NCBI GenBank assembly: GCA_963965975.1
Contig: OZ014412.1
Span: 5,086,501-5,150,500 of the forward strand
Direction of reading: 5' to 3'
Length of the DNA stretch: 64,000 nt
DNA from: Xestospongia bergquistia
Taxonomy: Eukaryota > Porifera > Demospongiae > Haplosclerida > Petrosiidae
Shown here: positions 1 to 64,000 of the stretch, one piece after another
How the letters are laid out: every line of letters begins with the position of its first letter
How positions within the stretch are numbered: position 1 is the stretch's first letter
The notes under the pieces: model-generated
The model's database searches: none
Seen by the model: the letters and a program-made list of their open reading frames with translations, nothing else
What the model was told of the DNA's origin: nothing
Translations under genes and position numbers: made by a program

Positions 1-1767
1 TTTTAAATGAGACTAGTATCAAAGTCAACTGGACTATGTCATCACAGACTAATGGATATGTCATTGTCATTAATTCTACTACTGGAGTAGGTACTAACAA
101 GATATTATCTACTACAGAAGATGAAGTTATAATCAATGGACTAACATTGAGTACATATTATGAGATCAGTGTGTATTCATATAAAGATCTTCCTTCAATT
201 AATAGTACACAAACATTGTTAAGATTTAATAGTGAGTTCATATTTGTATAAACACAATGTGACTTTATTTGATTGTCTAGTTCCTACAACAGTAACTGGT
301 CTGTCGGTGAGTGATGTCTCAACCACTACTATTACAGTAAACTGGACTAGTCCCAATAGTAAAGATGGTAACTATATAACATACTACAACATTTCCTATA
401 GTTCATCTTGTACTGAGTTATCATCAGTTAATGTAACATTGGTCTATGTTACTCCTCATCAGTTCACTACAACATTCAGTTATACATTAAGAGAATTGTC
501 CAATGGTATGAACTATACAATCACAGTGAGAGCTGGTAATATACTAGGAGAGTCTAGTCCAGTGATGATATTAGTTGAAACAATACCAACAACAGGTAAA
601 TAATACCTTTAATATTTTAATATAAACTTAATATAACTTTAGAACCTATGGGATCACCAAAGTTGATCATGGTTTCATCTGTTAGTTTGACATCAAACAA
701 AATTACATGGGAAGAAATTGATTGTCATCTACGTAATGGTAGAATCATTGAGTATATTGTGATCATTAGTAACAATAGTATCACATACAACCTCACCACT
801 ACTGAGAGATATGTCATTGTGAATGATCTAGTATTTGGTAATATATATAACATTAGTGTAGCTGGTGTGAACTCTATTGGAAGAGGTCCCTTCAGTGATC
901 CTGTTGAAGTACAGATTGGAACTAGTAAGTACATTATCAATTTTAATGAACAATAGTTAATTAATAATAATTGTTTATACTTTCTACTTAGTTCCTGGTC
1001 CAGTTAGTACACTAACCAGTTTGATGTCTATTACATGGGCTGTTATCTCATGGAGTGTACCTAGTTATATTCCTGTAGACTATCCTATTATCACATATGA
1101 GATAGGGTACACTATTCATTTGTTTGATGGTAGTTGTTCTCCTAGTAACGAGTTTAATCCAATGATAAAAACTAATACAAGTAGTAGAAATGTGACTATA
1201 AGTGATTTGAAAGGTAACACCTATTATCTGTTTGGTGTACGTGGTTACACTGTTAATGGTTATGGAGTATGGAGAGTGATTGGTAATATAACAGAACAAG
1301 AATGTACTATTAGTACTAATGAAGGTAATTGTAGACAATCTAGAAATTATTATTATTAACTTGTATTATTTTTAGTCGCTTCATATAACACTAGTACTAT
1401 TACTGGACTGGGTGTACTAGTTGGTATACTGTTGATTGTAGTGATAGTTAGTGTTATTGGGAATATACTGTTATTATTACTATATGTCAGACAGTATGTG
1501 AAATATGTAATGTTTTTAGTTATCAACATATTCACTTCTACAGACTCAAATCATTGGGAACTAATACAATTAAAGGAACAGACAGTGGGTAAGTTATCAT
1601 ATTTCTGTTACCTTGTGTTACTTCATATAATGTCTATCTATAGACCTGATGAAAATATTGAAATGAAAGTCTGTGAGCCCTACAGTCTACATCAGTCTAA
1701 ACCAACTGATGATATTTATGATGAGTGTCAACCACCAGTAGATACCAGTGTATATGAGTGTATGTAA
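1..1767 (+). CDS. Ig/FN3 single-pass receptor, copy A (5' end outside window)
   Basis: Exons 1-231, 281-595, 643-924, 992-1324, 1376-1493, 1544-1588 and 1644-1767 are joined by GT-AG introns of 47-67 bases and give 481 open codons before TAA. They encode four FN3 domains (one per exon, each starting near a W and ending in an N-Y-x-I-x-V strand), then a membrane helix (GVLVGILLIVVIVSVIGNIL) followed by YVRQ, then a tail with EPYSLH, DIYDEC and the C-terminal SVYECM. The frame is set by comparison with copies D and E, which have the same exon sizes. The protein should sit in the plasma membrane with a glycosylated ectodomain (many N-x-S/T sites) and signal or dock through tail tyrosines; ligand unknown. 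Everything upstream (signal peptide, Ig domains, first FN3) lies outside the window, so integrity of the whole gene cannot be judged. Confidence 0.8.
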
Positions 1768-2910: not shown

Positions 2911-2959
2911 AAGTATATTGGTCAGAGAGAAGTGTTCTGTTAAGTTACATTGTAAAACA
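2911..2959 (+). promoter_or_regulatory. Conserved block before the start codon (copy B1)
   Basis: The stretch around TATATTGGTCAGAGAGAAG followed by TGTTCTGTTAAGTTACATTG sits immediately 5' of the ATG. Nearly the same block is found before B2, the 19.1-kb copy, D and E. It contains an inverted CCAAT core (ATTGG). Its position suggests a core promoter plus short 5' UTR. Function is inferred from conservation and position only. Confidence 0.5.
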
Positions 2960-3620
2960 ATGTCTGTACTACTACTGACTACTATCTTCTTGTTATTTGT
3001 CAGTGAAGTTATGAGTAACTGTCCACCAGACTCAGGTAAGTGACTTAATGAGAATTACATCATTTATTAACAATGTTCTAGGTATCTACCTGATGTTTAA
3101 TGAAGATTGTTATCCTAATGGCTCCTACATCAATCATCTTTACATCACACCAAACACACCAGACACATCATACTATATATCACATCTTCAATGTGTGTTA
3201 CCTAATTCTACTTTGTCTGGAGGAGAATGGGTCTATCCCAATGGACAACCTGTAAATTGTAACAATAGTACTAGAAATAATCCTCTCAGTTGTATTAAAT
3301 CTAATACTCCATCTAACATCACTCTATACAGACCTGATGGAGACAATTTTCATGAATCTGATTTTGGTGGTAATAAGTTCAAGTGTTGTCTACCCAGTAA
3401 TTGTTCTGATCCTACTACCAACATCATCACTGTTCATATATTCAGTAAGTTATATCTCATTGTACTAGTACACACTGTCATTTGTTACTGATCTACTATA
3501 GGACATGTAGAGATCATAGACTTCAGTATTGTTAAACTTCCTTCTAATATGACAGTTGTTCCACAACAATACATACTTCATTGTGTATATAGTGGATGGT
3601 ATCAAGAATTCAGGTAGTAT
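2960..3620 (+). pseudogene. Receptor copy B1, truncated after Ig-like domain 1
   Basis: Exon 1 (2960-3035) encodes a signal peptide starting MSVLLLTTIFLLFVSEV and ending SNCPPDSG. Exon 2 (3082-3444, 121 codons) is a complete first Ig-like domain. Exon 3 starts at 3502 but hits TAG where the other copies have TGG (the W of the FRWYN motif, about 3614), and the homology ends a few bases later. The sequence then jumps to the upstream region of the next copy, which begins at 3816. This looks like the product of unequal crossing over. If transcribed it could give only a short secreted Ig protein. Exon 2 is closest to that of copy E (same N-T-P-D-T-S-Y-Y insertion), not to C or D. Confidence 0.75.
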
Positions 3621-3763
3621 AATAACAAAATGGATACAGCTGTAGTACTTGTGGAGTACAAACCATAAATCATAAATTAAGATTGTGTGAATGGGAAACA
3701 TTTATCTACATTGATGTAGGTGTATATCATTAATCTGATGTTTATATTGTATAAAAGTATAAA

Positions 3764-3815: not shown

Positions 3816-6800
3816 ATGTTTGTACTATTACTGGCTACTATCTTGTTATGTGTCAGTGAAGTTATTAGTAACTGTCCACCAGACTCAGGTAAGTGACTTG
3901 ATATGTAGTACATCATTTAGTAACAATGTTCTAGGTATCTACCTGATGTTCAATGGAAGTTGTTATCCTAATGGCTCCTACATCAATCATATTTACATCA
4001 CGCCAGACACATCATATTATATATCATATCTTCAGTGTGTGTTACCTAATTCTAATTTGTCTGGAGGAGAGTGGGTTAATCCTAATGGACAACCTGTCAA
4101 CTGTGGATCCAGTACTAACAATAATCCTCTTCGCTGTATTAAATCTAATACTCCATCTAACATCACTCTATACAGACCTGATGGAGACACTTTTCATGAA
4201 TCTGATTTTGGTAGTAATGAGTTCAAGTATTGTCTACCCAGTAGTGGTTCTGATCATCCTACTAACATCATCACTGTTCATATATTTAGTAAGTTATATC
4301 TCATTGTACTAGTATACACTGTCATTTGTTATTGATGTACAATAGGACATGTAGAAATCATAGACTTCAGTGTTGTTGAACTTCGTTATCTTAAAGTAAC
4401 TGGTAAGTACTTTTACTACTATATTTACATGATGTCAAATGTAATCCTCTCAGCTCCAGGATTCACTCCCTCTCCGCTTACTCTGGTCAACAAGTCAGCT
4501 ACCACTATCACTGTTAGTTGGACACCTGTTCCATCTGATGCTGATGGATATGTAGTCAATGCTACTAGTTACACACACACACTGTGACACAACAGATAAA
4601 GGGAGGTAGTCAGAATGAAATGATACTGAAGGGACTAATACCAGTAACAAATTATAACATCACAGTCAGAGCCTATCAAGATATACTGGGACCTGCTAGT
4701 AATGCAATCAGTGTACAAACTAATATAAATCTAACTACAGGTATAGATTTTAATGTATTATTTGATATTTCAATAATTTATAGCTATAGGTATATCATCT
4801 ATTAGTTGGATTTTTTTTCTTCAAAACACTATTAGTTGTATTACAACTACTGTCAATGTTACTACTGATGTTTACTGGTTAGTGAATGGAGTAATGAAGT
4901 GCAACTCACTGTATGCATTAATTGATTCTGATCTCCTCATATACAACAACACACTGCTGGTATATCCTGATCCACTGGGAGTTTCAGTTAATGTTACCTG
5001 TATAGCAATGTATAAAGAAGTGAACTACAGTGACACTGTGATATTACAAGGTATGTGAAATTTAGTTGTTCATAGTAACTAGATTTACCCTCTTCTAGTT
5101 CCAAATGGTCCTCCATCTGATGTGATGGCATATATTTTAAATAAGACTAGTACCAAAGTCAACTGGACTATGTTATCACAGACTAATGGATATGTCATTG
5201 TCATTAACTCTACTACTGGAGTAGGTACTAACAAGATATTATCTACTACAGAAGATGAAGTTATAATCAATGGACTAACATTGAGTACATATAACATCAG
5301 TGTGTACTCATATAAAGATCTTCCTTCAATTAATAGTACACAAACATTGTTAAGGTTTAATGGTGAGTTCATATTTATATAAACACAATGTGACTTTATT
5401 TCATTGTGTAGTTCCTACATCAGTAACTGGTCTCTTAGTGAGTGAAATCAATCACTACTATTACAGTAAACTGGACTAGTCCCAATAGTGAAGATGGTAA
5501 CTATATAACACACTACAACATTTCCTATAGTTCATCTTGTCCTGAGTTTTCATCAGTTAATGTGACATTGGTCTTTGTTACTCCTCATGAGTCCACTATA
5601 ACATTAAGTTATACATTAAGAGAATTGTTCAGTGGTATAAACTATACCATCACAATGAGAGCTGGTAATGTACTTGGAGAGTCTAGTCCAGTGATGATAG
5701 TAGGTGAAACAATACCAACAACAGGTAAATAATACCTTTAATGTTTTAATATAAACTTAATATAGCTTTAGAACCTATGGGATCACCAAAGTTGATCATG
5801 GTTTCATCTGTTAGTTTCACATCAAACAATATCACATGGGAAGAGATTGATTGTCATCTACGTAATGGTAGAATTATTGAGTATATTGTGATCATTAGTA
5901 ACAATAGTATCACATACAACCTCACCAGTACTAAGAGATATATCATTGTGAATGATCTAGTATTTGGTAATGTATATAACATTAATGTAGCTGGTGTGAA
6001 CTCTATTGAAAGAGGTCCTTTCAGTGATCCTGTTGAAGTACAGATTGGAACTAGTAAGTACATTATCAATTTTAATGAACAATAGTTAATTAATAATAAT
6101 TGTTTATACATTTTATTTAGTTCCTGGTCCAGTTGGTACACTAACCAGTTTGATGTCTATTACATGGGCTGTTATCTCATGGAGTGTACCTAGTTATATT
6201 CCTGTAGACTATCCTATTATCACATATGAGATAGGGTACAGTGTTCATTTGTTTGATGGTAGTTGTTCTCCTAGTGATGAGTTTAATCCAATGATTAAAA
6301 CTAATACAAGTAGTATAAATGTGACTATAAGTGATCTGATAGGTAACACCTATTATCTATTTGGTGTACGTGGTTACACTGTTAATGGTTATGGAGTATG
6401 GAGAGTAATTGGTAATATAACAAAACAAGAATGTACTATTAGTACTAATGAAGGTAATTGTAGACAATCTAGAAATTATTATTATTAACTTGTATTATTT
6501 TTAGTCGCTTCATATAACACTAGTACTATTACTGGACTGGGTGTACTAGTTGGTATACTGTTGATTGTAGTGATAGTTAGTGTTGTTGGGAATATACTGT
6601 TATTATTACTATATGTCAGACAGTATGTGAAATATGTAATGTTTTTAGTTATCAACATATTCACTTCTACAGACTCAAATCATTGGGAACTAATACAATT
6701 AAAGGAACAGACAGTGGGTAAGTTATCATATTTCTGTTACCTTGTGTTACTTCATATAATGTCTATCTATAGACCTGATGAAAATATTGAAATGAAAGTC

Positions 6801-6896
6801 TGTGAGCCCTACAGTCTACATCAGTCTAAACCAACTGATGATATTTATGATGAGTGTCAACCACCAGTAGATACCAGTGTATATGAGTGTATGTAA
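3816..6896 (+). pseudogene. Receptor copy B2, Ig-like 2 deleted, two frameshifts
   Basis: Exons: 3816-3888, 3935-4288, 4346-4402, 4454-4740, 4790-5050, 5099-5362, 5412-5724, 5772-6053, 6121-6453, 6505-6622, 6673-6717 and 6773-6896. Exon 3 has only 57 bases instead of 366, so the second Ig domain is deleted in frame. In FN3-1 (exon 4) an AC repeat is two bases longer than in the paralogs (near 4567-4583), and the frame then meets TGA. The Ig-like 3 exon lacks nine bases (in frame), and exon 7 lacks two bases near 5443-5450. The +2 and -2 changes cancel in total length but leave everything between out of frame. All splice sites and the 3' half are intact. Either a young pseudogene or a gene with assembly errors. 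The 3' half and flank are almost identical to copy A. Confidence 0.7.
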
Positions 6897-7861
6897 TATA
6901 TTAGTAACATGTTGTTAATTGTTATATTTTTAGTTTTATACAGAGTTGTTATAGTTAATGTATCAAAACATAACGTAGTTTATTAGTAGTAAATTATGTT
7001 AGTTTCATTAAAAAATTAAACATTTTAGTGTTCATCTAATCACATAGTTACATGATATCAAATGTAATCCTCTCAGCTCAAGGATTCACTCTCTCTCTCT
7101 TTTGCTCTGGTCAACAAGACAGCTACCACTATCACTGTCAGATGGACACCTTTTCCATCTGATGCTGATGGATATGTAGTCAATGCCACCAGTGACACAC
7201 ACACTGTGACACAACAGGTAAAGGGAGGTAGTCAAAATGAGATGACACTGAAAGTTTGTCATGGTGATCTTTATTGAAGTCATAATGTGTATGGTAAATA
7301 TAACAACAATATATAGATGACATCACTTGTTACTATATTTAGATATATGTGGTTACCTCCTGTCAGTGGTTCATGTACTAGATATATCACTTGTTGGTAC
7401 TTTAATTGTATATTAAGAAAATGTCATTCATTTATATATAGTGGATACGAGGGTAACAGTAATAAATAATTAACAAATAAAGTGAAAACATTTGCAACAT
7501 TGAATTGGTAGCATATAACAGACTTCCTTATGTCATCTCAAATGGCATAGATCTGAGAGACAATTTAATATTGCTGTTAAAATCACTTGGTTTAATTTCT
7601 TTAAAGTGGATAGTTCATTTCAGATTGTGCTGAATCTGTGAAAACAGTGGTAAATCTTCTTTTACTTACATAATTGTTGTGGACAAAAAGAAGAAGAAAC
7701 AAGAACATTTAAGTATTTTAACCAACATCTACAATGATGCTTAGAAACTTGCTTTAGCCTAACCAGTCACAACATAGGTATTATCCTAGGGAGGAAGACT
7801 GACAAGTATTGAGATGTTCATGTCTTTTGGTGTTTGGGTGAGATATTCTGTGTTCTGTCAA
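6897..7861. repeat. Inter-receptor repeat module, near-identical to the one after copy A
   Basis: No gene. It repeats 1768-2722 at a constant offset of 5129 bases with almost no changes, including the FN3 relic. It stops abruptly inside TGTGTTCTGTCAAT, where the sequence jumps into a transmembrane exon (next entry). This breakpoint marks the edge of a second duplication event. Confidence 0.8.
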
Positions 7862-8205
7862 TTGGTATACTGTTGATTGTAGTGATAGTTAGTGTTGTTG
7901 GGAATATACTGTTATTATTATATGTCAGACAGTATGTGAAATATGTAATGTTTTTAGTTATCAACATATTCACTTCTACAGACTCAAATCATTGGGAACT
8001 AATACAATTAAAGGAACAGACAGTGGGTAAGTTATCATATTTCTGTTACCTTGTGTTACTTCATATAATGTCTATCTATAGACCTGATGAAAATATTGAA
8101 ATGAAAGTCTGTGAGCCCTACAGTCTACATCAGTCTAAACCAACTAATGATATTTATGATGAGTGTCAACCACCAGTAGATACCAGTGTATATGAGTGTA
8201 TGTAA
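7862..8205 (+). pseudogene. Orphan transmembrane/tail exons of the receptor family
   Basis: A partial third copy of the last three exons: 7862-7931 (transmembrane part and YVRQ), 7982-8026 and 8082-8205 (tail, ending in SVYECM and TAA), with both small introns preserved. No signal peptide or ectodomain exon precedes it; the left end is fused to intergenic module sequence. The tail differs from copies A and B2 by a single D-to-N change, so the duplication is recent. It could matter only as a splice acceptor for an upstream copy, for example B2; otherwise it is a pseudogene fragment. Confidence 0.8.
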
Positions 8206-13233: not shown

Positions 13234-13261
13234 CTTGAGATATTAAACGTGTTAAAACGTG

Positions 13262-13416: not shown

Positions 13417-16400
13417 ATGTCTGTACTATTACTGGCTACTACTATCTTGTTATGTGTCAGTGAAGTTATTAGTAACTGTCCACCAGACTCAGGTAAGTGA
13501 CTTGATATGTAGTACATCATTTATTAACAATGTTCTAGGTATCTATCTGATGTTCAATGGAAGTTGTTATTCTAATGGCTCCTACATCAATCATAATTAC
13601 ATCACACCAGGAATTACCTATATATCACATCTTCATTGTGTGTTACCCAATTCTATTTTATCTGGAGGAGAGTGGGTCTATCCTAATGGACAACCTGTAA
13701 ACTGTAACAGCAATAATGACAGTGATCCTCTTCGTTGTATTGTCTCCAATAATCCTGCTAACATCACTGTATATCGACCTAATGGACAACAATTTTATGA
13801 AGTCAGTATAAATAGTTCACAGAATATAGGTGGTGATATGTTTAAATGTTGTCTACCCAGTAATTGTTCTGATCCTACTACCAACATCATCACTGTTCAT
13901 ATATTCAGTAAGTTATATCTCATTGTACTATAGTCTGTTTGCGTTCACCTTGCTGCTGGAAATTAGTAGTGGGTATAAGTAGTATACATAACACATACCA
14001 CAGATCATAAATTAAATACTTGTGATATTATTCTTATATCACATGAAAATAAAAGCCCATGTGTCTGTGTGTATAAATTTTTTTCTTGTAGAGTTGATTT
14101 TCTTAGCTACAGTAGTGCAGTACTTTTACTTTTATGTCTATTTTATTAAAATTTTACAGTTGGAATGTATTTCTGATCATACTGATTTCTCTCTTCAAGT
14201 GCCAGCCATTTTATTGATTAATGAAATTCATGAGATCACATTTCTCACGGTCAATGGCATCTCCTGTACTTTGCTTATGGAAAGTACAACAAATCTTGTT
14301 TTTGTAGTCCTATCATATAAAAAATGACGTCAAGAGAACTAGATGGTCATCAGGAAATCACTTGACTTTGAAATTTTGAATTTTGTCAAGTTATTAGAAA
14401 GTCATGATAATTTTTTTACTGGCAAGGTGAACGCGAATAGACTATAGTATACACTGTCAGTTGTTATAGATCTATTATAGGACATGTAGAGATCATAGAC
14501 TTCATTATTGTTGAACTTCCTTCTAATATGACAGTTGTTCCACAACAATACACACTTCATTGTGTATATAGTGGATTTTATCAAGAATTCAGGTGGTATA
14601 ATAGCAATACTGAATTAAACTGTACATTACTGCAAAATGGATTTAGTTGTGACATTAACCCAACACCAATTCAAAACTTTAACAACCCAATAACGATAAG
14701 ATCTTCATTTACATTTACTGTTACTTGGTATGCAGAGGAGATCAATAGTGGAATATTTAGTCAGTCAAACAATAATGGTGATCATGTACATAGATGTTAT
14801 GGAAGAGTAGAGGAGATTATAAGAAATCATTATCTTAAAGTCACTGGTAAGTACTTTTACTACTATAGATACATGATGTCAAATGTAATCCTCTCAGCTC
14901 CACAATTCACTCCCTCTCCTCCTACTCTGGTCAACAATACAGCTACCACTATCACTGTCAGTTGGACACCTGTTCCATCTGATGCTGATGGATATGTAGT
15001 CAATGCCACTAGTGACACACACACTGTGACACAACAGGTAAAGGGAGGTAGTCAGAATGAGATGACACTGAAGGGACTAATACCATCAACAACTTATAAC
15101 ATCACAGTCAGAGCCTATCAAGATATACTGGGACCTGCTAGTAATGTAATCAGTGTACAAACTAATATAAATCTAACTACAGGTATATATTTTAATCTAT
15201 TATTTGATATTTCAATAATTTATAACAATAGGTATATCATCTATTAGTTGGATTTTGTTAACTACTACACTTCAAAACGCTATTAGTTGTATTACAACTA
15301 CCATCAATGCTACTACTGATGTTTACTGGTTAGTGAATGGAGTAATAAATTACAACTCAATGTATACATTACTTGATTCTAATCTCCTCACATACAACAA
15401 CACACTACTGGTATATCCTGATCCACTGAGAGTGTCAGTTAATGTTACCTGTATAGCAATGTATAAAGGAGTGAACTACAGTGACACTGTGATATTACAA
15501 GGTATATGAAATTTAGTTGTTCATCTTAACTAAGATTATTCTTTTCTAGTTCCTATTGGTCCTCCATCTAATGTGATGACATACATTTTAAATGAGACTA
15601 GCATCAAAGTCAACTGGACTATGTCATCACAGACTAATGGATATGTCATTATCATTAAATCTACTACTGGAGTAGGTACTAACAAGATAATATCTACTAC
15701 AGAAGATGAAGTTATAGTCAATGGACTAACATTGAGTACATATAACATCAGTGTGTACTCATATAAAAATCTTCCTTCAATTAATAGTACACAAAGATTG
15801 TTAAGGTTTAATGGTGAGTTCATATTCCTGTAAACACAATGTGACTTTATTTGATTGTCTAGTTCCTATACCAGTAACTAGTCTCTCAGCATGTGATGTC
15901 TCAAACACTATTATTACAGTAAACTGGACTAGTCCCAGTAGTAAAGATGGTAACTATATAACATACTACAACATTTCCTATAGTCCATCTTGTCCTGAGT
16001 TATCATCAGTTAATGTAACATTGGTCTCTGTTACTCCTCGTCAGTTCACTACAATGTTCAGTTATACATTAAGAGAATTATTCAGTGGTATGAACTATAC
16101 CATCACAGTGAGAGCTGGTAATGTACTAGGAGAGTCTAGTCCAGTAATAATATTAGTTGAAACAATACCAACAACAGGTAAATAATACTTTTAATGTTTT
16201 AATATAAACTTAATACAAATTTAGAACCTATGGGATCACCAAAGTTGATCATGGTTTCATCTGTTAGTTTGACATCAAACAATATCACATGGGAAGAGAT
16301 TGATTGTCATCTACGTAATGGTAGAATCATTTAGTATATTGTGATCATTAGTAACAATAGTATCACAAACAACCTCACCACTACTGAGAGATATATCATT

Positions 16401-17347
16401 GTGAATGATCTAGTATTTGGTAATGTATATAACATTAGTGTAGCTGGTGTGAACTCTATTGGAAGAGGTCCCTTCAGTGATCCTCTTGAAGTACAGATTG
16501 GAACTAGTAAGTACATTATCAATTTTAATGAACAATAGTTAATTAATAATAATTGTTTATACTTTCTACTTAGTTCCTGGTCCAGTTGGTACACTAACCA
16601 GTTTGATGTCTATTACATGGGCTGTTATCTCATGGAGTGTACCTAGTTATATTCCTGTAGACTATCCTATTATCACATATGAGATAGGATACACTGTTCA
16701 TTTGTTTGATGGTAGTTGTTCTCCTAGTGATGAGTTTAGTCCAATGATTAAAACTAATACAAGTAGTATAAATGTGACTATAAGTGATCTGATAGGTAAC
16801 ACCTATTATCTGTTTGGTGTACGTGGTTACACTGTTAATGGTTATGGAGTATGGAGAGTAATTGGTAATATAACAGAACAAGAATGTACTATTTGTACTA
16901 ATGAAGGTAATTATAGACAATTTATAAATTATTATTATTAACTTTTATTATTTTCAGTGACTTCATCTAACACTAGTACTATTACTGGACCGGGTGTACT
17001 AGTTGGTATACTGTTGATTGTAGTGATAGTTAGTGTTATTGGGAACATACTGTTATTACTATATGTCAGACAGTATGTGAAATATATAATGTTTTTAGTT
17101 ATTAACAATGTTTACTTTTATAGACTCAAATCATTAGGAACTAATACAATTAAAGGAACAGACAGTGGGTAAGTTATCATATTTCTGTTACCTTGTGTTA
17201 CTTCATATAATGTCTATCTATAGACCTGCTGAAAATATTGAAATGAAAGTCTGTGAGCCCTACAATCTACATCAGTCTAAACCAACTGATGATATTTATG
17301 ATGAGTGTGAACCACCAGTAGATACCAGTGTATATGAGTGTATGTAA
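13417..17347 (+). pseudogene. Receptor copy C, complete exon set but one nonsense codon
   Basis: Exons: 13417-13492, 13539-13907, 14481-14846, 14898-15182, 15232-15501, 15550-15813, 15863-16177, 16225-16506, 16574-16906, 16958-17072, 17124-17168 and 17224-17347. The total of 2844 bases equals that of intact copy D. The only disabling change is TAG at 16332-16334 (codon 685, GAG in the paralogs), inside the fourth FN3 domain. A product ending there would have the signal peptide, three Ig-like and three FN3 domains and part of the fourth, but no membrane anchor, so it would be secreted. Everything after the stop is still open, so the change is recent, allelic or a sequence error. Intron 2 holds a 514-base transposon. 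The usual promoter block is missing because foreign DNA was inserted just upstream. Confidence 0.75.
13931..14444. mobile_element. Non-autonomous TA-target DNA transposon in intron 2 of copy C
   Basis: The 514-base insert starts TAGTCTGTTTGCGTTCACCT and ends in its inverted complement (AGGTGAACGCGAATAGACTA), about 24 of 26 positions matching over the longer terminal repeat. It is flanked by TA on both sides (13929-13930 and 14445-14446). Copies B2, D and E have the empty site in the same intron with one TA, which proves insertion and defines the duplication. A TA target and short inverted ends fit a Tc1/mariner-class miniature element. A 101-codon ORF inside (14022-14327) shows no transposase motif. 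Confidence 0.85.
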
Positions 17348-19083: not shown

Positions 19084-19790
19084 ATGTTTGTACTACTACT
19101 GACTACTATCTTGTTGTGTGTCAGTGAAGTTATTAGTAACTGTCCACCAGACTCAGGTAAGTGATTTGATATGTAGTACATTATTTATTAGCAATGTTCT
19201 AGGTATCTACCTGATGTTCAATAGAGATTGTTATCCTAATGGCTCCTACATCAATCATATTTACATCACACCAGGTGTGATGTATATCATATATATCACA
19301 CCTTGAGTGTGTGTTACCTAATTCTACTTTGTCTGGAGGAGAGTTGGTTAATCCTGATGGACAACCTGTGCATTTGCCAACACAAAATTAAAATCTAGAC
19401 AATCTAATGACAATAAGTTCTTTATTTATATTTACTGCTACTTGGTATGGAGAAAAGATCAGTAGTGGTATATTTAGTCAGTCAAACAATAATGGTGATC
19501 ATGTACATAGATGTTATGGAAGAACTGCAGAGATAAAAAGAAATTGTTATCTTATAGTAACTGGTAAGTACTTTTACTACTATAGTTACATGATGTGAAA
19601 TGTAATCCTCTCCTCCTACTCTGGTCAACATGACAGCTACCACTATCACTGTCAGTTGGAGACCTGTTCCATCTGATGCTGATGGATATGTAGTCAATGC
19701 CACTAGTGACACACACACTGTGACACAACAGGTAAAGAGAGGTAGTCAAAATGAGATGACACTGAAAGTTTGTCCTGGTGATCTTTATTG
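19084..19790 (+). pseudogene. Receptor fragment: signal peptide, fused Ig pieces, FN3 relic
   Basis: Exon 1 (19084-19156) and the start of exon 2 (from 19203) are intact, but the frame meets TGA near 19303. A deletion then joins the middle of Ig-like 1 to the middle of Ig-like 2 (about 19370-19390). The donor after Ig-like 2 remains, but the acceptor before FN3-1 is deleted (TCCTCTCCTCC instead of CTCAG-CTCCAG). The FN3 relic at 19615-19760 runs into module sequence. No functional receptor can be made from it. Confidence 0.75.
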
Positions 19791-49918: not shown

Positions 49919-52655
49919 ATGTCTTCTGAACATGTTTCTATGACCCCTGGTGGCATACATAAACTACCTGTTAAAGTAGAGAGTGAGGATTTAAGCTCTA
50001 GTCAAATAGTGTCTGGTCTTGCAATTGAAAAAGTTGGAGGTTTATTTGGTGTCCTACCCTTTCAGTCAATGAAGGAGTATTCAATGCCAATAGTTTCTCC
50101 TACTCTATTTGAAGGTACTTCATATTACTTTAAATATTTCAATGATAGGTAATGTATTTTTTTGTTCACAGGTTATCCTATTGATCCCAAATATCTGAAA
50201 GAGTTAATATTCAACCAATCAAATACAACCAAAATACGTCCAGTCTTGTTGTGTTTCGAAGGCCATCCAGAAAGTGGTAAAACAAGAGCAGTCTCATATC
50301 TTTTAGACAACTATGTTGATTCAAGTCCCTTTCAACCCATGACAAAGAAAAATGAGAGGTTATAAGCAGTAGGAATCACATATTTTGAGATTGTTGCTGC
50401 TGGATTCTATCCTTTGAAAAAACTCACCATCACTGAAGTGACTAAAGAGTCCAGTTGTGCATTTGGTATTCTATCAGCTTTTAGAAAAGAGCTTTTGCAA
50501 AATCATAAAGTACCTCTCTTCAACTTTGATTCGAAAGGGCCACTTTCCAGTTTTGAAGACCACGAATTAGAAGGTCATCTTCAGTACATATTCAGCTATA
50601 TTTGTCAATATGAACACACTCCTAAAGGTACAGAGGTCACCCCTAAAGAACAAGAGTATGCTGCACAGCTGAAGAATTTACTTCCAGAAGGTATTGCCCT
50701 TATTAACATTTGGGATATTGCCATCAACAAAACAGTACATTACTTTTTGACTTCACTGTGTGGTCTGCTTTATAACAGTCATATGTGGCTCTTTATGGAT
50801 ATGGATCAAGATCTAGAAAACCTCGACAAACCTCCAGAAATTCTTAAAGAAACTACCGGAGTTGCAGTTACTACAAACCATAGTGGTAAAGGAGAGCAAT
50901 CAGTTCTCATGAAATGGCGTCCTCGTCTTCATTACTTGCTTCGTTCAAGTAGAATGAGCGAAAGTATACATGGTCCCAGAGAAGGTGTGTGTACTATATT
51001 TGCCAAGCACAGGGGTACATACAGTGAAAATCTAAAGTTGAAAGTCTCAGAACTTGAAATCAAAGTAAAACAAGCTGCTAAACATATTGGTGTGCATTCT
51101 CTTATAGAGCCAAAAATCGAAACCATTGATTTCAAGTGTAATGATCTCAATGATAAGTCTCTTCATCTTTATGAAAAGTTCCAACAGGTTATCTGCAAAA
51201 CACATTATAAAGATGTTCCTCTCTCCTGGATATTTCTTCGTAGTCTATTTTTCAGGTCAGAAAAAAAATTCATAGCTAAATCAGAACTTCGAAAGAAAGC
51301 TGAAGAATGTGGTATGGATGATGAGTCACTTACAAAGTTTTGTGAGTTTTATACTTCATTTGGAAGTATATTTGATCTTAGTCTTGTTAATCCAGAGTAT
51401 CCCTACATCATAGTAAAACCAATGGGTTTTTTGAGAACACTGGACAAGTTATTATACCCTGAGGATAGTATCTGTCAAAAGTATCCATCAATAGTAAATG
51501 GCATCATTCCAGAAAAAGCTTGCAAAGATGTTTTTGGAGAAAGCTGGATGGTCTTTATGGAAGCTTTAGTATCTGTCAATTTGGGCACAAAAGTGTCTAG
51601 TTTACATTTAGATATACCTGATCTTGATCCCAATGATATATACTACTTTATCCCTTTAAGTCGTAAAGGTAATCTAATAATGGAAACTGATCCCACAGCA
51701 ATTCATCTGATTGTTAATATTGATGCCCCTCATGTCTTTCAGCAGACAACCTTTGCCAACTACCTCTTGAAATCATTGCAAAAGCCAAAGCTTGTACAAT
51801 GTAATAATCCCAATCAAACCATCATCACAGAGACTACTACTGGTATTACTATCACACTTGTTTCTCATAGTCCAGCTACTAAAATATCCATCAGCCAAGC
51901 CAATCCTGATGTTTGCTCTCTCGTCCTCAAAACCTATGCCAAAATAGCTGAAAAATGTAAAATTGGAACTGTAAAATATAAATTTGTTATGTTATGTGCC
52001 AAAAGTGGAGTTCCTGATGTACGAGATATCCCATCTTGTCAGTACCACATACTACCAAATGACACACTCTGTGATGAGTGTATAAATGCTGGGAGAGTGA
52101 ATGATCAGCTGAAAGGTTGGAATGAAGCATTGAGAAAGGTTAGGGAGTTTATATGTAGTTGTCATGACTTATAATATCGTTTTTTGCTTCTCTTTTCAGC
52201 ATCCAATTCCTTCAAAATGTCAACCAGACAGACGTGAGTGCTTGTTAAGATATTAGACTTGACTTTTTAATCTATTATAGGTTTAAAACCTTCAGAGCTT
52301 GCTTACATTGCTGAGAAGATTGCATCATTCAATCCAAGCATTGTTGCTGAAATATTTGGTTTCAAGGATTTAAGTCAATATCAAGAAATAAAAGGAGCAA
52401 AACTTTTTAATGCAATGCTGTTAGAATGGGATAGAGTAAACCAGTCACAAACAGAAATCAGGCAAATTTTTTCAAGGAAACTTTTAGAATTAGATGAATC
52501 ATATAATGGCCCACTTGAACAGAAGCCAGACTTTAAAACCCTTGCAAAAGAAATAGATATTCATGGTATGTTGTGTATAAACTTTAAAGACATATTTTAT
52601 GTGTCTCTTATCTATAGCACGACCTACAAATACAATGAAACAGAACACTTCGTAG
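49919..52655 (+). pseudogene. P-loop/COR-like NTPase with Death domain, copy I (one nonsense codon)
   Basis: Exons: 49919-50114, 50172-52138, 52200-52233, 52281-52565 and 52618-52655 (2520 bases). The only defect is TAA at 50363-50365 (codon 130, where F has GAA), 80 bases after the Walker A (GHPESGKT). All other features are kept: KVGGLFGVLPFQ in exon 1, ITEVTKESSCAFGILSAF, MWLFMDM, the COR-like region, LCDEC, a Death domain (ELAYIAEKIA, SRKLLELDE, LAKEIDIH) and a last exon ending TMKQNTS. Re-initiation at a downstream ATG (50414) would lose the P-loop. A single in-frame stop in an otherwise open 839-codon gene suggests a very young null allele or a sequence error. Walker A starts GHP rather than GIP. 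Confidence 0.75.
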
Positions 52656-54061: not shown

Positions 54062-56802
54062 ATGGATCGTGATGTCAATGAAGTTTCTAATGGACCAGCC
54101 ATGTATGAGTCACCTATTGATGAAGAAAGCAGGGAATCAGCTTCTTCAACTCAATTGATATCTGGTCTTCAAAAAATTGGAGGATTGTTCGATATCAAAC
54201 CTTTTCAGGGAATTAAAGAATCCACTGAAGCTACTACTCCATATGAAGGTAATAAGCTTGCCCTTCTTTGACACATAAAAATTATACCTTAGATATGTGT
54301 CATAGCTTCATGTATTTTCCTCAGGTTATTCTATTGATTCCAATTACATCAAAAAAGCAATATGCAACCAATCAAATAAAACCAAAATACGTCCAGTCTT
54401 ACTGTCATTTAGCGGGATTCCAGAAAGTGGTAAAACAAGAGCAGTCTCGTATCTTTTAGACAACTATGTTGATTCAAGTCCCTTTGTACCCATGACAAAG
54501 AAAAACGAGATGAAATTAGGGGCAGATGGAATCACTTATTATGAGCTGGTAGCTGCTGGATTCCATCCGTTGAGAGAGCTCACTATCACCGAGGTCACTA
54601 AAGAGTCCAGTTGTGCTTTTGGTATTCTATCAGCATTTAAGGAAGAGCTTTTGGTAAATGGCCTGGTGCCACTCTTCAACTTTAATGCTGAAGAATCTTC
54701 CCACATTTTTGGTGATCCTGAGTTAGATGATCATCTTCGTCATACATTTAATTATCTGAGTCAGCATGAGCATACTCCTACTGGTTCTGTGGTGACATAT
54801 AATGACCAACAATATGCTAGACGATTAAAGAAGCTGCTTCCAGAAGGAATTGCACTAATCAACATATGGGATATTGCCATTAATAGAATAGTACTTCACT
54901 TTATGACTTCACTGCGTGGTCTTCTTTACAACAACCATACTTGGCTCTTCCTGGACATTGAGCGAGATTTACAAAATCTTGAAAAACCACCGAAAATTCC
55001 TGAAGGAAATTGTGAAGCTGGTTTTAGTAGAGATGGTTCAGTTCTTATGAAATGGCGTCCTCGTATTCATTATTTGGTTCGTTTTAGTAGAATGAGTGAA
55101 AGTAAGCATGGTCCCAGGAAAGGTGTATGTACTATATTTGCTAAGTACACAAACTCTTGCAAAAACTTAGAGCAAAAGGTTGTAGAGCTTGAAGATAAAG
55201 TAAAGCAAACTGCTAAACACATTGGTGTGTCTTCTATTATAGAGCCTCAAATTGTTCCAGTCAGTTTTGATTGCTCTGATATTCATGATGATCGATCTCT
55301 TCGTCTTTATCAGAAGTTTCAACAGGTTATCTACCAGACACCATATGAAGATGTACCTCTCTCATGGGTATTTCTGCGAAGTTTGTTCTTCAGGCTACAA
55401 AAGAAATTCATAATGAAATCTGAGCTAAGAGAGAAAGCTAAAAAATGTGGTATGGATGAGGACTCCCTTACGAAATTTTGTCAGTTTTATATGTCCTTTG
55501 GCAGTATATTTGATCTTAGTCTTGTTAACTCAGATTATCGCTATGTTATAGTAAAACCAATGGGATTTCTAAAATCTTTGGATAAGTTTTTATGTCCTGA
55601 TGATAACACCTATCGGCAGTACCCAAAATTAGTGAATGGTATCATCCCTGAGAAAGCATTCGAAGAGGTCTTCGAAGAGAACTGGTCAGCATTTGTGGAA
55701 GCCCTATTATCTATCAACCTAGCCACTAAAGTGCCTAGTTCACAGTTAGATATATCTGATCTTGATCCTAATGATACATATTACTATGTTCCTTTAAGCC
55801 GCAAAGGTGATCCCGTAATGAAAGCTGATCCTACAGCAGTTCATCTCATTACTAGTATCAATACACCACATGTCTTCAAACAAGCCACATTTGCTAAGTA
55901 CCTCTTACAATCATTGCCAGAGCCAAAGCTCGTACCGTGTAGTAATATTAACCAGACAATAATCAAAGAGTGTTCTACTGGTGCTACCATTAGTCTTGTC
56001 TCTCACAGTCCTGCTACTAAAATAGCTGTCGATCAAGCCAATCCTGAAGTCTTTTCTCTCATTGTTAAAACATATAATGAGATTGCAGAAACATGTAAAA
56101 TTGGAACAACAAAATATAAATTTGTCACAATATGTGCCAAAAGTGGAGTTCCTGATGTACGAGATATTCTATCTTGTCAGTACCATGTTCTACCAAATGA
56201 TACACTCTGTGATGAGTGCAAGAAAGATTTAAGAATTAATGATCAGTTAAAAGCCTGGAATGAAGCTTTGAGAAAGGTCAGCAATTCTCTTTTTTCCAAT
56301 TGAGTTGTATATTTTATTGATTCCTCCATTATTTTTTTGTAGCATCCTGTTCCTTTTAAAAGTTTACCTGATAAAAGTAAATATTATGTTTTTATCTAAT
56401 TAGTCATGATTATAATTCTACATGATAGAAGTAAAGATAACAGAGCTAGCCTACATTGCTGAACAGATTGCATCATGTGATCCAACTGTTGTTGCTGAAA
56501 CACTTGGGTTCCAGGATTTGACTCCATTTCAAGAAACGGAAGCAGAGAGGCTTATTAATGAAATGCTACTTGTCTGGAGCAGAGGAGACCAGTCACACAT
56601 TGAGCCCAGACAAGATCTAGCAAGAAAACTACTAGAGTTAGATACAAAGTATAATGGAGTACCAGAACAGAAGCCTGACTTTAAAACTCTTGCACAAGAA
56701 CTAGATATTCATGGTATGTTGTGTGTACTATCCCATAATATGTTATATATATTCATTTTTTTCTTATCTGTAGTGCGACCCACAAGTTCAGTGAACATGT
56801 AG
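54062..56802 (+). CDS. P-loop/COR-like NTPase with Death domain, copy J
   Basis: Exons: 54062-54248, 54325-56276, 56343-56376, 56429-56713 and 56774-56802 (2487 bases, 828 codons, open). Exon 1 carries KIGGLFDIKPFQGIKE. Exon 2 has Walker A GIPESGKT, ITEVTKESSCAFGILSAF, TWLFLDIERDL, the COR-like segment (EDVPLSWVFLRSLF, SFGSIFDLSL, YVIVKPMGFLKSLDKFL) and LCDEC. Exon 4 is a Death domain (ELAYIAEQIA, ETLGF, MLLVW, ARKLLELD, LAQELDIH). The product ends VRPTSSVNM. It is the closest relative of F in this window, and its promoter region and upstream COG8 fragment are also shared with F, so the whole COG8-tail-to-NTPase unit was duplicated. Presumed cytosolic. Confidence 0.87.
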
Positions 56803-57471: not shown

Positions 57472-60376
57472 ATGTCCTATCAAGTATCTCATCATGAAGA
57501 GACTGATGCAACACGTTCTTTGCTAGTGTCTGGTGTCAATCGAATTGGACAAAGTTTTGATTTTTTTGTGCCAAGCCAAGGAATACGACTCTCACCAGTG
57601 GCAAAAACTGATTCAATTGTTTCATTTTCAGGTATATATTTTTAATGTATACAAATATAAACTGTTTACATGGATGTGTTGCCATATTATTTGCTAATTT
57701 ATTGCCTATTTTTACAATTGGGTTCTTTTGTCCAAAGTGTTAACCTAATTATCTGATGCTAAGTAGTTGGAATCAATACACATAAGTTATATTACATTGT
57801 TAATGTCTGTGTGTTTTTGTTCAATAGGAGTTAATGTTAATCCTGAATATCTCAAGAGTGTTATACTCAATCAAGAAAACAAGACAAAGATACGTCCTAT
57901 CTTACTTGCGTTTAATGGCCTTCCAAAGTCTGGGAAAACAAAGTCAGTTTCTCATCTTCTAAGGAATTATGTTGATTCAAATCCTATTACACCTATGACC
58001 GATAAAAATGATGAACAAAGGAAAGAGAATATATCGTATTACGAGCTAGTAGCTGCTGGTTTTCACCCTTTGAGAGAACTCACTATCACTGAGGTCACAA
58101 AAGAGTCCAGCTGTGCTTTTGGCATACTATCTGCTTTTAGAAAAGAGCTCTTAGCAAAAGGTGAAGCGCCTCTATTTAATGGCAACCCGGAAGGTCCTGT
58201 ACAAGTTTTTGATGATTCTGATTTAGATGGTCATCTTCAGTATACATTCAGATATCTTCATAAAAACAATCCTAAAGGATCTGACTTGAGTAAAGAAGAA
58301 GAAGAGTTTGCTCAAGGAATGATAAAGTTGCTCCCAGAAGGAATAGCACTCATCAATGTCTGGGATGTCTCAATTAATGCAAGAGTTTTACATTGCTTGA
58401 GTGGTTTCTTTGGTCATCTTTATAACTGCCACTCATGGTTGTTTCTGGATATCGAGCGAGATCTTAAAAATCTTGATTGCATTCCTGAGGTTGATTTTAA
58501 TGATATCAAAAAGAATGAATCAGTTCTAATGACAACTCGTCCACGACTTCATTATCTTCTTCGATCAAGTAGAATGAGTCAAAGTAATAAATATAACAGA
58601 AAAGATGTCTGTACAATATTTGCAAGACACACTACATCTCTTAATGTCAATTCATTAAAGCACATGGTCACAGAGCTTGAAAACAAAATAAAGCAAGCTA
58701 CCAAACATGTTGGTGTGTCTTTTATTATAGAGCCAAAAATTGAGACCGTTGTTTTAGACGATTCTGGAATTTCTAATGACATTTCACATCATCTTTATCA
58801 GAAGTTCCAACAGCTAATCTATCAGACACCATATGAAGATGTTCCTCTTTCTTGGGTGTTCCTTCGTAGTTTGTTCTACAGATCACCAAAAATATTTATA
58901 TCCAAATCAGAACTAAAGAAGAAAGCTAAAGAATGTGGTATGGATGATGACTCGTTCGGCAAATTTTGTGAATTTTATACTTCATTTGGCAGTATATTTG
59001 ATCTTAGTCTCGTTGATCAAAAATATCTGTATGTAATTGTGAAGCCTATGGGATTTCTAAGAAGTTTAGACAAGATCTTACACCCTGATAAATCCATTCG
59101 TCACAAATACTCAGCTATTAATTGTGGTATCGTTTCTGAGAAAGCTTGCATGGAAGTTTTTCAAGAGATTTGGTCAAGATTCATGGAAGCTTTAGAAGCA
59201 ATTTGTTTAGCAACAAAGGTCACAAGTGCATGCATAGACATATCTGATCTCAGCCAAAGTGAGATATATTATTATGTACCTTTAACTTGTACAGATTTAA
59301 TTATAACATCAGTCAATCCAAAAGCTTTGTACTTAATGACTAGCCTCAATATGCCACATATCTTTCAGCCTGCTATCTTTGCTAAACATTTGTTGGAATT
59401 GCTTCCAAATGCTAAACTTATACCTTGTGCTGCACCCAACAAAACGTTGATTAAAGATTATTCTACTAGTACGACAATCACTATTGTGTCTCATAGTCCA
59501 ACAACAATGATTCAAGTAGATCAAGTCGATCCAGCTGTATGTTCTCAAATAATTCAAGCTTGCCATAAAATTGCAAACGCTTGTAATGTTGGGCCTACAA
59601 AGTATAAATTCATTGTTATATGTGCCAAGAGCCGCAATGTTACTAATGCGAAATGTATTCCTTCTTCTCAATATCATGTTCTACCTAACAATGTTCTTTG
59701 TGATGTCTGTGCACAAAATGATAGGATTACTGAGACATTAAAGGCGTGGAATAAAGCTGTAACTGAGGTCAGTAAAAAATTTTAAAACTTTACATTTTAC
59801 TCTAATTATCCTTTTAGTTTCCTGTTCCTGAGGAATTTATGCCTAATGAAGGTAAGCCCTATGAAGGTCCATAACCTATAAGGATCTTTACTTTTTTTAC
59901 AGAAATAACTATTTCAGAATTTTCTATTATTGCTAAAAAGCTTGGTTCCTTTTCATCGGATGATACATTCATCCAGAAGTTTGCTAGAGTACTAGGAATT
60001 GAGGATGCTGCTCAGTTTAAAGGCTCTAGTGGAGAAAAGACTGTCATGCAAATTCTGTTAGCCTGGGATAAATCAGCTCATTCTAATCAAAGTCAGTCAA
60101 AACTTGAACACAGACAAGAGTTAGCAAGGAAGCTGCTAGAGTTTGGTGCTAAACTCTGTTCTTCGGATGAAACGGTATCAGACAAAAGCCTTCAGCCTCA
60201 TGCACCATATAAGATGTCAGTTTTTGAAAATCTGGCTAGAGAACTCGATGCCTATGGTATGTACCAGTATACTAACTAATAAACTGACTTTTACTATTTA
60301 TACAGCTGTGCTGGAATCAGAAACAGAAGATGAGCCAGAGTCAGACTGTGACATGCCACAGAGTTTGCAGCCATAG
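57472..60376 (+). CDS. P-loop/COR-like NTPase with Death domain, copy K
   Basis: Exons: 57472-57631, 57828-59767, 59818-59851, 59903-60256 and 60306-60376 (2559 bases, 852 codons, open). This is one of the more diverged copies. Exon 1 has RIGQSFDFFVPSQGIRL in place of the GLF-VKPFQ motif. Walker A is GLPKSGKT, the hydrophobic strand SWLFLDIERDL, the COR-like segment EDVPLSWVFLRSLFY, and the CxxC CDVC. The Death exon is longer (118 codons; EFSIIAKKLG, RVLGI, ARKLLEFG, ARELDAYG), and the last exon adds an acidic tail (ESETEDEPESDCDMPQSLQP). The acidic tail and longer Death domain suggest a partner different from that of F, I and J. Confidence 0.86.
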
Positions 60377-61094: not shown

Positions 61095-64000
61095 ATGGCC
61101 GAGTCGAGGGGTGACTATCCAAGTCCTGATACGGCAAGAAGTGAGGGAACAAAAGGTGACCTGGTCGTGGCAGATGTTTCTACTGTTGCGGAATTTATTG
61201 GGGTCAAACCTAAACTTGAAAAACCAGGACTAAAGAAGGAAGAGTTATATTCATACCAATGTTCAAATGACACACCTGTCCAAATGCAAGGTGAATTATG
61301 TATGAATGAGTTATATATGTCAAGGCTTGTTTGGAAATTTAGTCTCATATTAAAATGGCCTTATATGTTTGAAAGAGATTAGTCAGCTTTAAATAAGGGG
61401 CAGTCCCCAGTTGTACGAAACTCACTTTGTGTCTAATCTAATATATAGAGCCTATCTAAACACTGGCTAATTGTGTAGAGGTTCTCAGAATGTTGTGCCA
61501 TCATTCCTACCTTGTTTGTTAGCTTTGGCATTGCCATTCTTATATTCTCTTTCCTTTTTCATAATGATTTTTATTATATTTAAGCAACTGATTGATCTTT
61601 ACACAGCTAGTAAGACATGGAAGAATGTTTTAAAGTGTTGGTAAAGTGAAAAACTAAATAGACTTTCTTTTTCCTTTTCCTGGACTAGCATAATGTTGTA
61701 TCAAATTTTCACAATGGGTTAATTTTGGACTACAGGAAGACATTTTACAAGTGCCAGGAACATGTTACTTAGCTTCTTCATAAGTCAAATTTGTTCATGG
61801 AGTGATAGTTTCTTACAAACTGGTGCCTTAATTTCAGTCGAGTGACAGTTTATCCAATTATCCATGATAATTATTCATCAACAATTGATTTATGACTGAG
61901 CATGTATATTACTATGTGGTAATGATTATCTAAACACATGGTAATATCTGTATAGTTTCTATCATTTCATTGACTTGTTCCTATTTGCTTCCAGGCTTAG
62001 ATAGTTTTTAGTTCATTGTTAAAATGGATTGGTTGTTATTCATAGTTACTAGAGTTTCATGTATCCCTAATTAAAAATACATTGAAAAGTATTAACAACA
62101 TTCATTGTTTTGATTAGTATTTACTATTGAACAGACTTAAAGGACTTCTCAAAAGGGCATGTATGTGTTTAGGGATGTCCTATAATTTCATAGTGTAATC
62201 AATTAATGAGAGCTATTATACATAAGAACAGCAATGCTACCACAGATTTCATTATGACAGATTACATAGGTCCAGTACCCATGAAGATTATTTTGTCTAA
62301 CTGATGTGACAGATGTTGAACAAAATCATTGTTTTGACAATTAGCTACCTGTACATATATCACTATCACTGTGTATGAACAGACATCATTAAAATAAGTA
62401 GAATGATAAAAATCAATTATAAATGAGAATAATGATGTATGAATGTCAATGCCAAATTACCAAAATTTACTGAAACGAGACAGAGGAACGTATCTACATA
62501 TGTAGTGGTTACAAAAAAGATAAATTGTGAATAGTTTGATTGTATGAAGCATTGGCAAATATATAAGTTTTGCTACATTTCTACCTATATTTCAGGTAGA
62601 GGTATTTTCTGAAATACTAACTATGTAAGTCAGTAAATTGTTTAATGCTTAACTTATATAAACTAAAGTCCTCATGTGTAATCATTGTAATGTTATTTTT
62701 AGTTTAAATAGTGTCCATGAAAAACATTCTTTTATTATTATCCTATATAAGATATTTAAGTACTATAGTGGTCTAAAATATTATTTTAGTTACTTTCAAC
62801 TTTAATTCATTATTGGACAAGATATCAGTTTGAATATATTTTATTAATTTACAGGTTCTCCATTTGATCATGAGGACCTCAAAAAGCTGATATCTAATCA
62901 AAATCATTTGACAAAGATTCGACCAGTTTTGCTTACATTGACTGGTCTACCAGATTCTGGTAAGACAAAAGCAATTAAACATCTTCTAAATCACTATGTT
63001 GATGAAAGTCCATTGCCTCCAATGTCAAGGAAAAGCTACAGTCGCGATCATGAAGCAGAAGGAATCACATATTATGAACTTGTTGCTGCTGGTTTCCATC
63101 CTTTAAGAGATCTTACAATTGCTGAAGTCACTAATGAAACTAGTTGTGCATTTGGAATACTATCAGCTTTTCGCAAAAGTATTCGAGTTCACAAGAAAGT
63201 GCCACTGTTTCTTAAGGAGTCAGAGGTTGATTCTGAGCCATGTTTTGAAGACCCAGATTTAGAAGACCATCTTCAATACATATATAAATACCTTTGTCGA
63301 TATGAGCGAATGCCAAAAGGGCCTAATCTTAGTGACAATGAAAAGAAAATTTTTGCTGAGCCTCTTTGTAAGTTGCTTCCACGGGGCATTGCACTTATCA
63401 ACATTTGGGACGTGTCTCTAAATAAAACAGTTCTATATGTTTTGAGAGCTCTCTTTGGTCAATTTTACAACAGCCATACTTGGTTGTTTTTAGACATTGA
63501 ACGTGATTTTGATAATCTTGACCAACCTCCTCAAGTCACAGAAACAACAACCAGTGGTGCTCATAAAGATGATGCGGTTTTAATGAAGTGGCGTTCTCGT
63601 TTTCAGTATTTGCTTCGTTCTAGTAGAATGAGTGAAAGTAAATATGGTCCCAGAAAGGATGTGTGTACAATATTTGCTAAGCATAGCAGTTTGTCTAATG
63701 GTAGTCTAGCACAAAAAGTTGCAAAGATTGAAGAGAAAGCACAACAAGCTTCTAAGCATGTTGGTGTGGCTTCTCTTCTTGAATCTAAAATTGAGCCTAT
63801 CAACTTGACCGAAAATGCTATGGATGACTATAATGATTATTCTCATCGTCTATATCAGAAATTTCATCATGTAATTTGTGAAACACCCTACACAGATGTT
63901 CCTCTATCCTGGGTCTTTCTCCGCAGCATGTTTTACAGAGATCGTCATAAAATGTTTATACTGAAATCTGAGCTTAAACAAAAAGCAAGTGAATGTGGCA
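61095..64000 (+). CDS. P-loop/COR-like NTPase, copy L (3' end outside window)
   Basis: Exon 1 is 61095-61290 (65 codons plus one base), with TVAEFIGVKPKLEKPGLKKE in the place of the family N-terminal motif. A 1564-base intron ends at 62854. Exon 2 starts at 62855 and is open to the window edge. It encodes Walker A GLPDSGKT, YYELVAAGFHPLRDLTI, ETSCAFGILSAF, TWLFLDIERDFDNL, VCTIFAKH and the COR-like start DVPLSWVFLRSMFY. The phase of the join (G then GTTCTCC) is the same as in all other copies. Its sequence is distinct from F/I/J. The Death exon, if present, is beyond the window. The start is chosen because the ATG gives an exon of the family length; a longer upstream frame (61008) is open but less likely. 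Confidence 0.8.
61291..62854 (+). other. Long intron 1 of gene L, nothing else seen
   Basis: About 1.56 kb, roughly thirty times the usual intron size here. No open frame, tandem repeat or inverted repeat that I can recognise. As in gene G, the first intron between the N-terminal motif exon and the P-loop exon is the long one, where regulatory elements would be expected. Confidence 0.5.

Follow-up and report, generated by a model that had tools for sequence, protein, structure and literature searches.

Does the close neighbourhood of two tandem multigene families around one COG8 gene in the sponge Xestospongia bergquistia reflect a shared function, or does the meaningful link lie elsewhere in the genome? 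The stretch in question, hereafter the window, spans 64,000 nucleotides (positions 5,086,501–5,150,500 of contig OZ014412.1, abbreviated C2, of a genome of 146.46 Mb in 21 contigs); we examined it together with 50 kb of its left and 80 kb of its right flank, and ran genome-wide searches over all contigs. A sequence-only reading of the window had described variable Ig/FN3 receptors beside expanding Death-domain P-loop proteins, with broken copies in both families, and had suggested a functional link between them. Its observation is borne out in part, as is its interpretation: two tandem families do flank COG8, all on the plus strand, but the meaningful linkage is that of one ectodomain with two kinds of tail, not that of the receptors with their neighbours. 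The best explanation, to which we give a probability of about 0.55, is a multi-array family of variable Ig-like/FN3 receptors that would work as a paired-receptor system, next to an older expansion of relatives of the Roco proteins, whose position there is most likely incidental.

The left cluster (window positions 1–28,822) forms the right-hand end of a receptor array of about 160 kb, which extends from approximately C2:4.954 to 5.115 Mb. Gene models came from a small spliced gene finder, for which long exons served as the training set, while receptor splice positions were set by alignment and a local AG/GT search. The receptor gene has 12 exons: signal peptide, V, Ig2, F1, Ig3, F2, F3, F4, F5, transmembrane segment (TM), a short juxtamembrane exon and the tail. 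Phase 1 introns are common to the exons from signal peptide through F5, as in exon-shuffled modules. The predicted product is a type I receptor: between its signal peptide and its TM lie the parts encoded by three Ig-like and five FN3 exons, and its tail bears tyrosines. The FN3 half of the proposed composition is confirmed by Pfam (fn3; E = 3.1e-31, four stretches). Pfam scans gave no Ig family match for the Ig-like exons, and the fold model of an Ig-like exon reached a pLDDT (predicted local distance difference test) of only 34; the Ig label, drawn from a C...W...C pattern common to V and Ig2, is tentative. The tail tyrosines are conserved: the tail of gene D (Table 1) terminates in EPYSLHQSKPTDDIYDECQPPVDTSVYECM, and three tyrosines are kept in all 13 complete tails (79 kb read). 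The full models of the receptor genes in the window stop after this short tail, with no protein tyrosine phosphatase (PTP) domain.

Eight receptor units lie in the window, three of them intact (entering at 1; 20,603; 25,426) and five broken or partial (2,960; 3,816; 7,861; 13,417; 19,090). Seven units picked as complete were used for full models and for exon and intron divergence: six are open from ATG to stop (915–924 amino acids, aa) and the seventh has one stop, while an eighth, near-complete unit at -39,507, left of the window, has stops in Ig2 and F4. A tandem duplication (1–2,733 versus 5,135–7,862; 97% identity) spans the broken copy at 3,816. Tandem duplication, broken copies and the exon divergence described below support the view that a family of variable surface receptors is evolving here by birth and death. 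Within the array, the only minus-strand gene that the gene finder reported for the window is a fragment resembling a retroelement integrase (11,689–12,772). At the left array end (L038; C2:4,946,001–4,956,000), several copies of a gene, which we take to be kynureninase-like, are interleaved with receptor exons.

Where the receptors vary is seen in the seven genes (21 pairs). Mean DNA divergence is 12.9% in V and 10.2% in Ig2, as compared to 6.9% in the intron before V and 4.3% in the V–Ig2 intron, and F2, F4 and F5 diverge by 3.5–4.7% (F2–F5 overall, 0.035–0.076). The outer two Ig-like exons diverge beyond their adjoining introns, and most inner exons do not. The contrast of outer and inner parts is not uniform, however: high values (5–17%) occur in F3, the TM exon and several 3′ introns as well. 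Over copies with at least 90% coverage and no stops, exons of broken units included, synonymous divergence (dS) is 0.03–0.22 and the ratio of nonsynonymous to synonymous divergence (dN/dS) mostly 0.5–1, with 0.50 for V, 0.71 for Ig2, 1.02 for F3 and 2.17 for the tiny tail exon. We read this pattern as suggestive of exchange among several V lineages rather than of simple positive selection.

The genome-wide searches bring in a second kind of gene. Their match numbers are lower bounds, the best 150 candidates having been scored for V exon, Death, COR-A, PTP and short tail. The V exon occurs chiefly in three regions (C2:4.95–5.115 Mb, C2:6.84–6.96 Mb and C9:1.99–2.73 Mb), with a few short fragments at C9:3.3–4.2 Mb. 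Near the edge of the C2:6.8-Mb array, 1.7 Mb away, an FN3 gene (L036) leads into two PTP domains (Pfam E = 5.8e-99); gene L043 on contig C9 matches PTP at E = 1e-57, and the catalytic motif HCSAGVGRTG is present in both. On C9, 15 of 18 plus-strand PTP units have a V exon 3.0–5.5 kb upstream (one additional, minus-strand unit at C9:2.149 Mb is outside the 18), and at C2:6.8 Mb this holds for six out of seven (3.0–6.0 kb upstream). No PTP match falls in the window's array (C2:4.95–5.12 Mb) among the part of the 194 matches for which positions were listed. Short-tail match groups number 25 in the window's array, 27 at C9:2.15–2.73 Mb and 12 at C2:6.8 Mb; tail and PTP units were obtained by merging matches within 0.6–2.5 kb, weak and broken ones included. 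The PTP form occupies C9:1.99–2.15 Mb, and both forms are interleaved at C2:6.83–6.96 Mb. Other surface genes (L035, L044), presumably plexin-like with IPT repeats, lie beside or between the receptor copies of C9, with a receptor-like tail fragment near L044.

How similar the two forms are was determined with the C9 genes that we read: PTP gene L043 (most of its length; its second PTP domain lies beyond the stretch), the 5′ part of L014, and the short-tail gene L045. Between the short-tail genes of C2 and the C9 PTP genes, DNA identity is 0.878 in V, 0.875 in Ig2, 0.911 in F1, 0.922 in Ig3 and 0.920 in F2 (two PTP genes), and 0.898 in F3 (L043 only), near the 0.88–0.95 found for V–F3 within the C2 array; three introns in the shared part are 96–98% identical. 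Beyond F3, identity is 0.578 in F4 and 0.689 in F5 (L043 only). Within the C2 array no exon is more conserved than F5 (0.965), so the drop is not due to rapid evolution of the 3′ half; for F4, within-array identity is 0.957 over the seven genes, or 0.853 over eight rows, the eighth of which belongs to a clipped locus and is possibly a cross-hit. We infer recombination with a junction near F3/F4 in the C9 PTP gene. The final ~97 bases of its F5 are again 90% alike to the short-tail form, and its history would therefore be mosaic. In L036, the PTP part follows after an F4–F5 that is 88–91% DNA-identical to the short-tail form, a second junction. The same ectodomain appears to have acquired two outputs, with the junction in two different places. 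In a tree of V, Ig2 and F1 from 13 genes, L043 (C9) is sister to short-tail gene L012 of C2 (100/99), and six of the 10 inner branches are open; L012, L015 and L016 are called short-tail, and L014 PTP, after their nearest downstream matches rather than from the genes themselves. For a TM between ectodomain and PTP, the short-tail TM query gave no match of length and the gene finder placed none. The predicted F5–PTP stretch of L043 (C9:2.028 Mb) contains VVYANV and LTYEVI, which we take to fit the consensus of the immunoreceptor tyrosine-based inhibitory motif (ITIM).

A nearly identical ectodomain on two signalling parts (0.875–0.922 over V–F3, with the drop at F4) is what characterises paired receptors, and the short tail and the phosphatase would correspond to the opposed outputs on which such a layout is built. 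The first step of the mechanism that we propose is established: receptors with a variable outer part, open short-tail gene models, two kinds of 3′ end and a V–F3 part common to both, with excess divergence in the outer exons. V–F3 and the phosphatase exons would be carried in one transcript with a TM segment, and the outer Ig-like domains would bind a ligand, perhaps each other. Once phosphorylated, the tyrosines of the short tail would recruit SH2 proteins, while the phosphatase form, bound to the same ligand, would reset phosphorylation, the balance setting the response. Exchange of ectodomain exons between arrays would let the outer domains vary without the two forms losing their match in specificity. 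Such receptors could be used in self/non-self or microbe recognition; a role in a recognition system is plausible and one in allorecognition is possible. It is a tentative suggestion, less likely than not, that they form a self/non-self paired system: inhibition would fall to a receptor phosphatase that shares its variable ectodomain with a short-tail tyrosine receptor, and V–F3 exchange between arrays and between contigs would keep the forms matched as they diversify.

On the other side of COG8, the right cluster extends ~110 kb past the window. As far as motifs and profiles tell, it consists of Roco relatives with a degenerate G3 motif (B genes), interleaved with canonical Roc-COR-ZU5 genes (R genes). 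The name Death-domain P-loop proteins suits it poorly: the P-loop stands, but a Death domain is not confirmed, as Pfam recognises it in none of eight B C-terminal exons, and a weak profile match of such an exon to Death (E = 0.0034) was the best of 23 comparisons. R genes have DTGGQPE (the G3 motif DxxGQ) in all four aligned copies, and COR-A is above the cut-off in three of the seven R copies of the cluster; the copy in the window matches COR-A at E = 1.6e-6 (28.5 bits, below the curated cut-off of 35.3) and ZU5 at E = 1.7e-4. B genes have the P-loop GxxxSGK[ST] in all six rows that cover it, and WD(I/V/L) or WNI without GQ where the alignment would place DxxGQ. Having P-loop and COR but no DxxGQ, they are classed as Roco relatives whose G domain is degenerate. 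B-protein relatives at C2:15,920,366 (E = 8.9e-65), C1:12,610,010 and C1:12,661,170 overlap same-strand COR-A matches (E = 7.7e-4, 2.5e-8 and 1.6e-5, respectively), and the top Foldseek matches of a low-confidence model of B gene 4 are Roco COR structures (E = 8e-6).

The B family is older than the receptors and under purifying selection, with dS of 0.68–2.1 and dN/dS of 0.17–0.35 (seven of 10 close copies, two broken and one further copy being omitted). Five of the eight receptor units in the window are broken or partial; stops or frameshifts affect one out of six B copies there and two out of 10 close copies over the whole cluster, to which at least one fragment is to be added (36,992–37,360, 84% to 56,234–56,603). 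It is mainly the receptor family that shows recent decay. The genome contains at least 146 COR-A matches (best 150 of 171 candidates), with tandem clusters at C10:1.40–1.70, C11:6.37–6.47, C12:5.39–5.54, C15 and C6:7.0 Mb, suggesting a very large Roco expansion genome-wide, and at least 150 Death-domain matches (best 150 of 983 candidates). The Roco relatives beside the receptors probably act inside the cell, as switches in immunity or cell death. At C8:7.277–7.298 Mb, three COR-A genes with open frames of 1,639–1,871 aa also match the protein kinase domain, in an LRRK-like layout. Two further genes recur in the right flank. Copies of one stand beside R genes, with which they were apparently duplicated, at 70.8–72.5 and 107.1–108.5 kb from the window start (L022, L026); the first matches Pfam Amidohydro_1, and the gene is presumably guanine-deaminase-like. 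ZU5-like genes stand beside B and R genes at 84.6–88.8 and 102.5–104.1 kb (L024, L025–L026), the former with an N-terminal Death match of 19.6 bits (cut-off 22.6).

Table 1. Receptor genes, COG8 and Roco-type genes located in the window (window coordinates).
Feature	Position	Strand	Remarks
Receptor gene D, 3′ part (within F2 to tail)	1..1767	+	Intact, 916 aa; ATG ~1.6 kb left of window; exon matches, splice sites, full model
Partial receptor copy	2960..3635	+	Signal peptide, V, truncated Ig2 with stop; exon matches
Broken receptor copy	3816..6896	+	Ig2 absent, F1 split over two frames; exon matches
Tail-only partial receptor copy	7861..8205	+	TM and cytoplasmic exons; exon matches
Full-length receptor copy	13417..17347	+	One in-frame stop in F4; full model
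Partial receptor copy	19090..19767	+	5′ fragment with stop; exon matches
Receptor gene G	20603..24216	+	Intact, 923 aa; full model
Receptor gene H	25426..28822	+	Intact, 918 aa; final full unit of array; full model
COG8 (Dor1 family)	29763..33345 (approximate)	+	Between clusters; Dor1 E = 3.2e-70 on joined exon pieces
Roco-related (B) gene 1	33688..36321	+	Exons: N-terminal, P-loop/COR-like (~655 aa), C-terminal helical; gene finder, alignment
Roco-related (B) gene 2	39946..43567	+	Gene finder
Canonical Roco gene (R)	44196..48250	+	Roc with DTGGQPE, COR-A, ZU5
Roco-related (B) gene 3	49919..52652	+	In-frame stop; gene finder
Roco-related (B) gene 4	54062..56713	+	Used for structure model and searches
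Roco-related (B) gene 5	57527..60373	+	Fused to gene 4 by gene finder
Roco-related (B) gene 6	61095..64000	+	Extends past window end

Could the two clusters constitute one functional locus, with receptors outside the cell and Death-domain/P-loop signalling proteins inside? They are within 5 kb of each other, with COG8 between the last receptor exon (ending at 28,822) and the first right-hand gene (starting at ~33,688), yet Roco-type genes adjoin only one of the three receptor loci. The 146 COR-A matches (best 150 of 171 candidates scored) all fall outside C9 and lie more than 1.5 Mb from the C2:6.8-Mb array, none of the close copies and remote relatives of B (66 matches; best 67 of 96 candidates scored) is on C9 or near C2:6.8 Mb, and five 10-kb stretches at or near receptor array ends contain no B, R, ZU5 or COG8 match; the genes predicted there are presumably dynein-like, plexin-like, V-ATPase-like and kynureninase-like. 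A rough placement model that assumes 40 random 60-kb clusters gives a chance of ~12% for one such adjacency among six edges. Moreover, dS and dN/dS indicate different ages and selection for the two families. With no Roco-type match near the two other arrays, the functional link is not supported; the proximity is most likely incidental, and we hold a single functional locus to be very improbable. Fragments of the COG8 3′ end occur inside the right cluster (48,742–48,938 and 49,421–49,579), suggesting a duplication that began beside COG8 and carried its 3′ end along with a B copy.

The receptors might instead serve ordinary tissue functions, in adhesion or as receptor phosphatases, their array being a lineage-specific expansion by unequal crossing-over and their short tails truncated or decoy forms. 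An FN3-rich ectodomain with tandem PTP is the layout of known adhesion receptor phosphatases, and recent tandem duplication with junctions such as that at 7,862, along with the many broken copies, would be expected; but against it stand short tails that are open in six of seven full models, conserve their tyrosines and form match groups in all three arrays, and outer exons that vary beyond their adjoining introns, and we find this account unlikely. It is improbable that near-identical tandem copies are, in part, uncollapsed haplotypes or assembly artefacts: some are 97% identical, but they are told apart by lost exons and by stops, and a second contig carries the ectodomain with a different 3′ end. 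Closer to our own proposal, the same paired layout could serve variable pathogen receptors instead of allorecognition. The at least 150 Death-domain and 146 COR-A matches suggest a heavy investment in innate immunity and cell death, which favours this alternative, while nothing here tells it from allorecognition; we rate it as a serious contender, though short of even odds.

Read as a paired-receptor family, the receptors are of greater interest than first noted, because their ectodomain is common to two signalling types across contigs. The open-licence literature that we searched establishes no receptor genes by which sponges would tell self from non-self, and no description was found there of a receptor family whose ectodomain is shared in this way or of a Roco expansion in sponges. 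In a term search of the main text of a graft transcriptome study of Amphimedon, immunoglobulin, fibronectin and phosphatase were absent (PMC5450542); for the same sponge, another paper describes vast TRADD-N/Death-fold expansions (PMC8195603). A variable outer part with two exchangeable outputs provides loci that can be directly tested for polymorphism and for segregation with graft outcome. If the self/non-self reading is right, these genes are candidate receptors of allorecognition in sponges; the family would also show that paired receptors, known from vertebrates, arose independently here, with an enzyme in place of the ITIM. With at least 146 COR-A matches, this is also a very Roco-rich animal genome, bearing on the origin of LRRK2/DAPK-type proteins.

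The right cluster has P-loop and COR in common with the Roco family (LRRK2, DAPK1, MFHAS1 and C. tepidum Roco) and differs from it in that B genes are without DxxGQ, R genes add ZU5, and neither leucine-rich repeats (LRR) nor a kinase were seen in the window. Brown-algal ROCO genes are likewise expanded and proposed as immune receptors, but they have LRR exons and are mostly dispersed (PMC11378527), whereas the sponge genes carry ZU5 or a helical C-terminal exon and stand in tandem clusters. Nearest to the receptors in anatomy is the Alr family of the Hydractinia allorecognition complex, whose genes likewise lie in a cluster with many pseudogenes and encode single-pass receptors in which the extracellular Ig-like domains vary; the available part of that source mentions no phosphatase members (PMC11067881), and the five FN3 exons are an addition of the sponge receptors. 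Receptor-type PTPs (LAR and R3 types) also join an FN3/Ig-like ectodomain to one or more PTP domains. A sponge R3 receptor-type PTP is in print, in an article that has among its references a work of 1999 on multiple sponge PTPs (PMC5336234). R3 receptors have one PTP domain and FN3 only, in contrast to the tandem PTP, the arrays of at least 25 units and the PTP-less sister set described here. Nearest in logic are the paired receptors of vertebrates (KIR, Ly49, PIR), with near-identical ectodomains, opposed tails, clustered genes and fast turnover. In place of an ITIM-recruited phosphatase, the second sponge type, for which no adaptor is known, bears the PTP domains itself.

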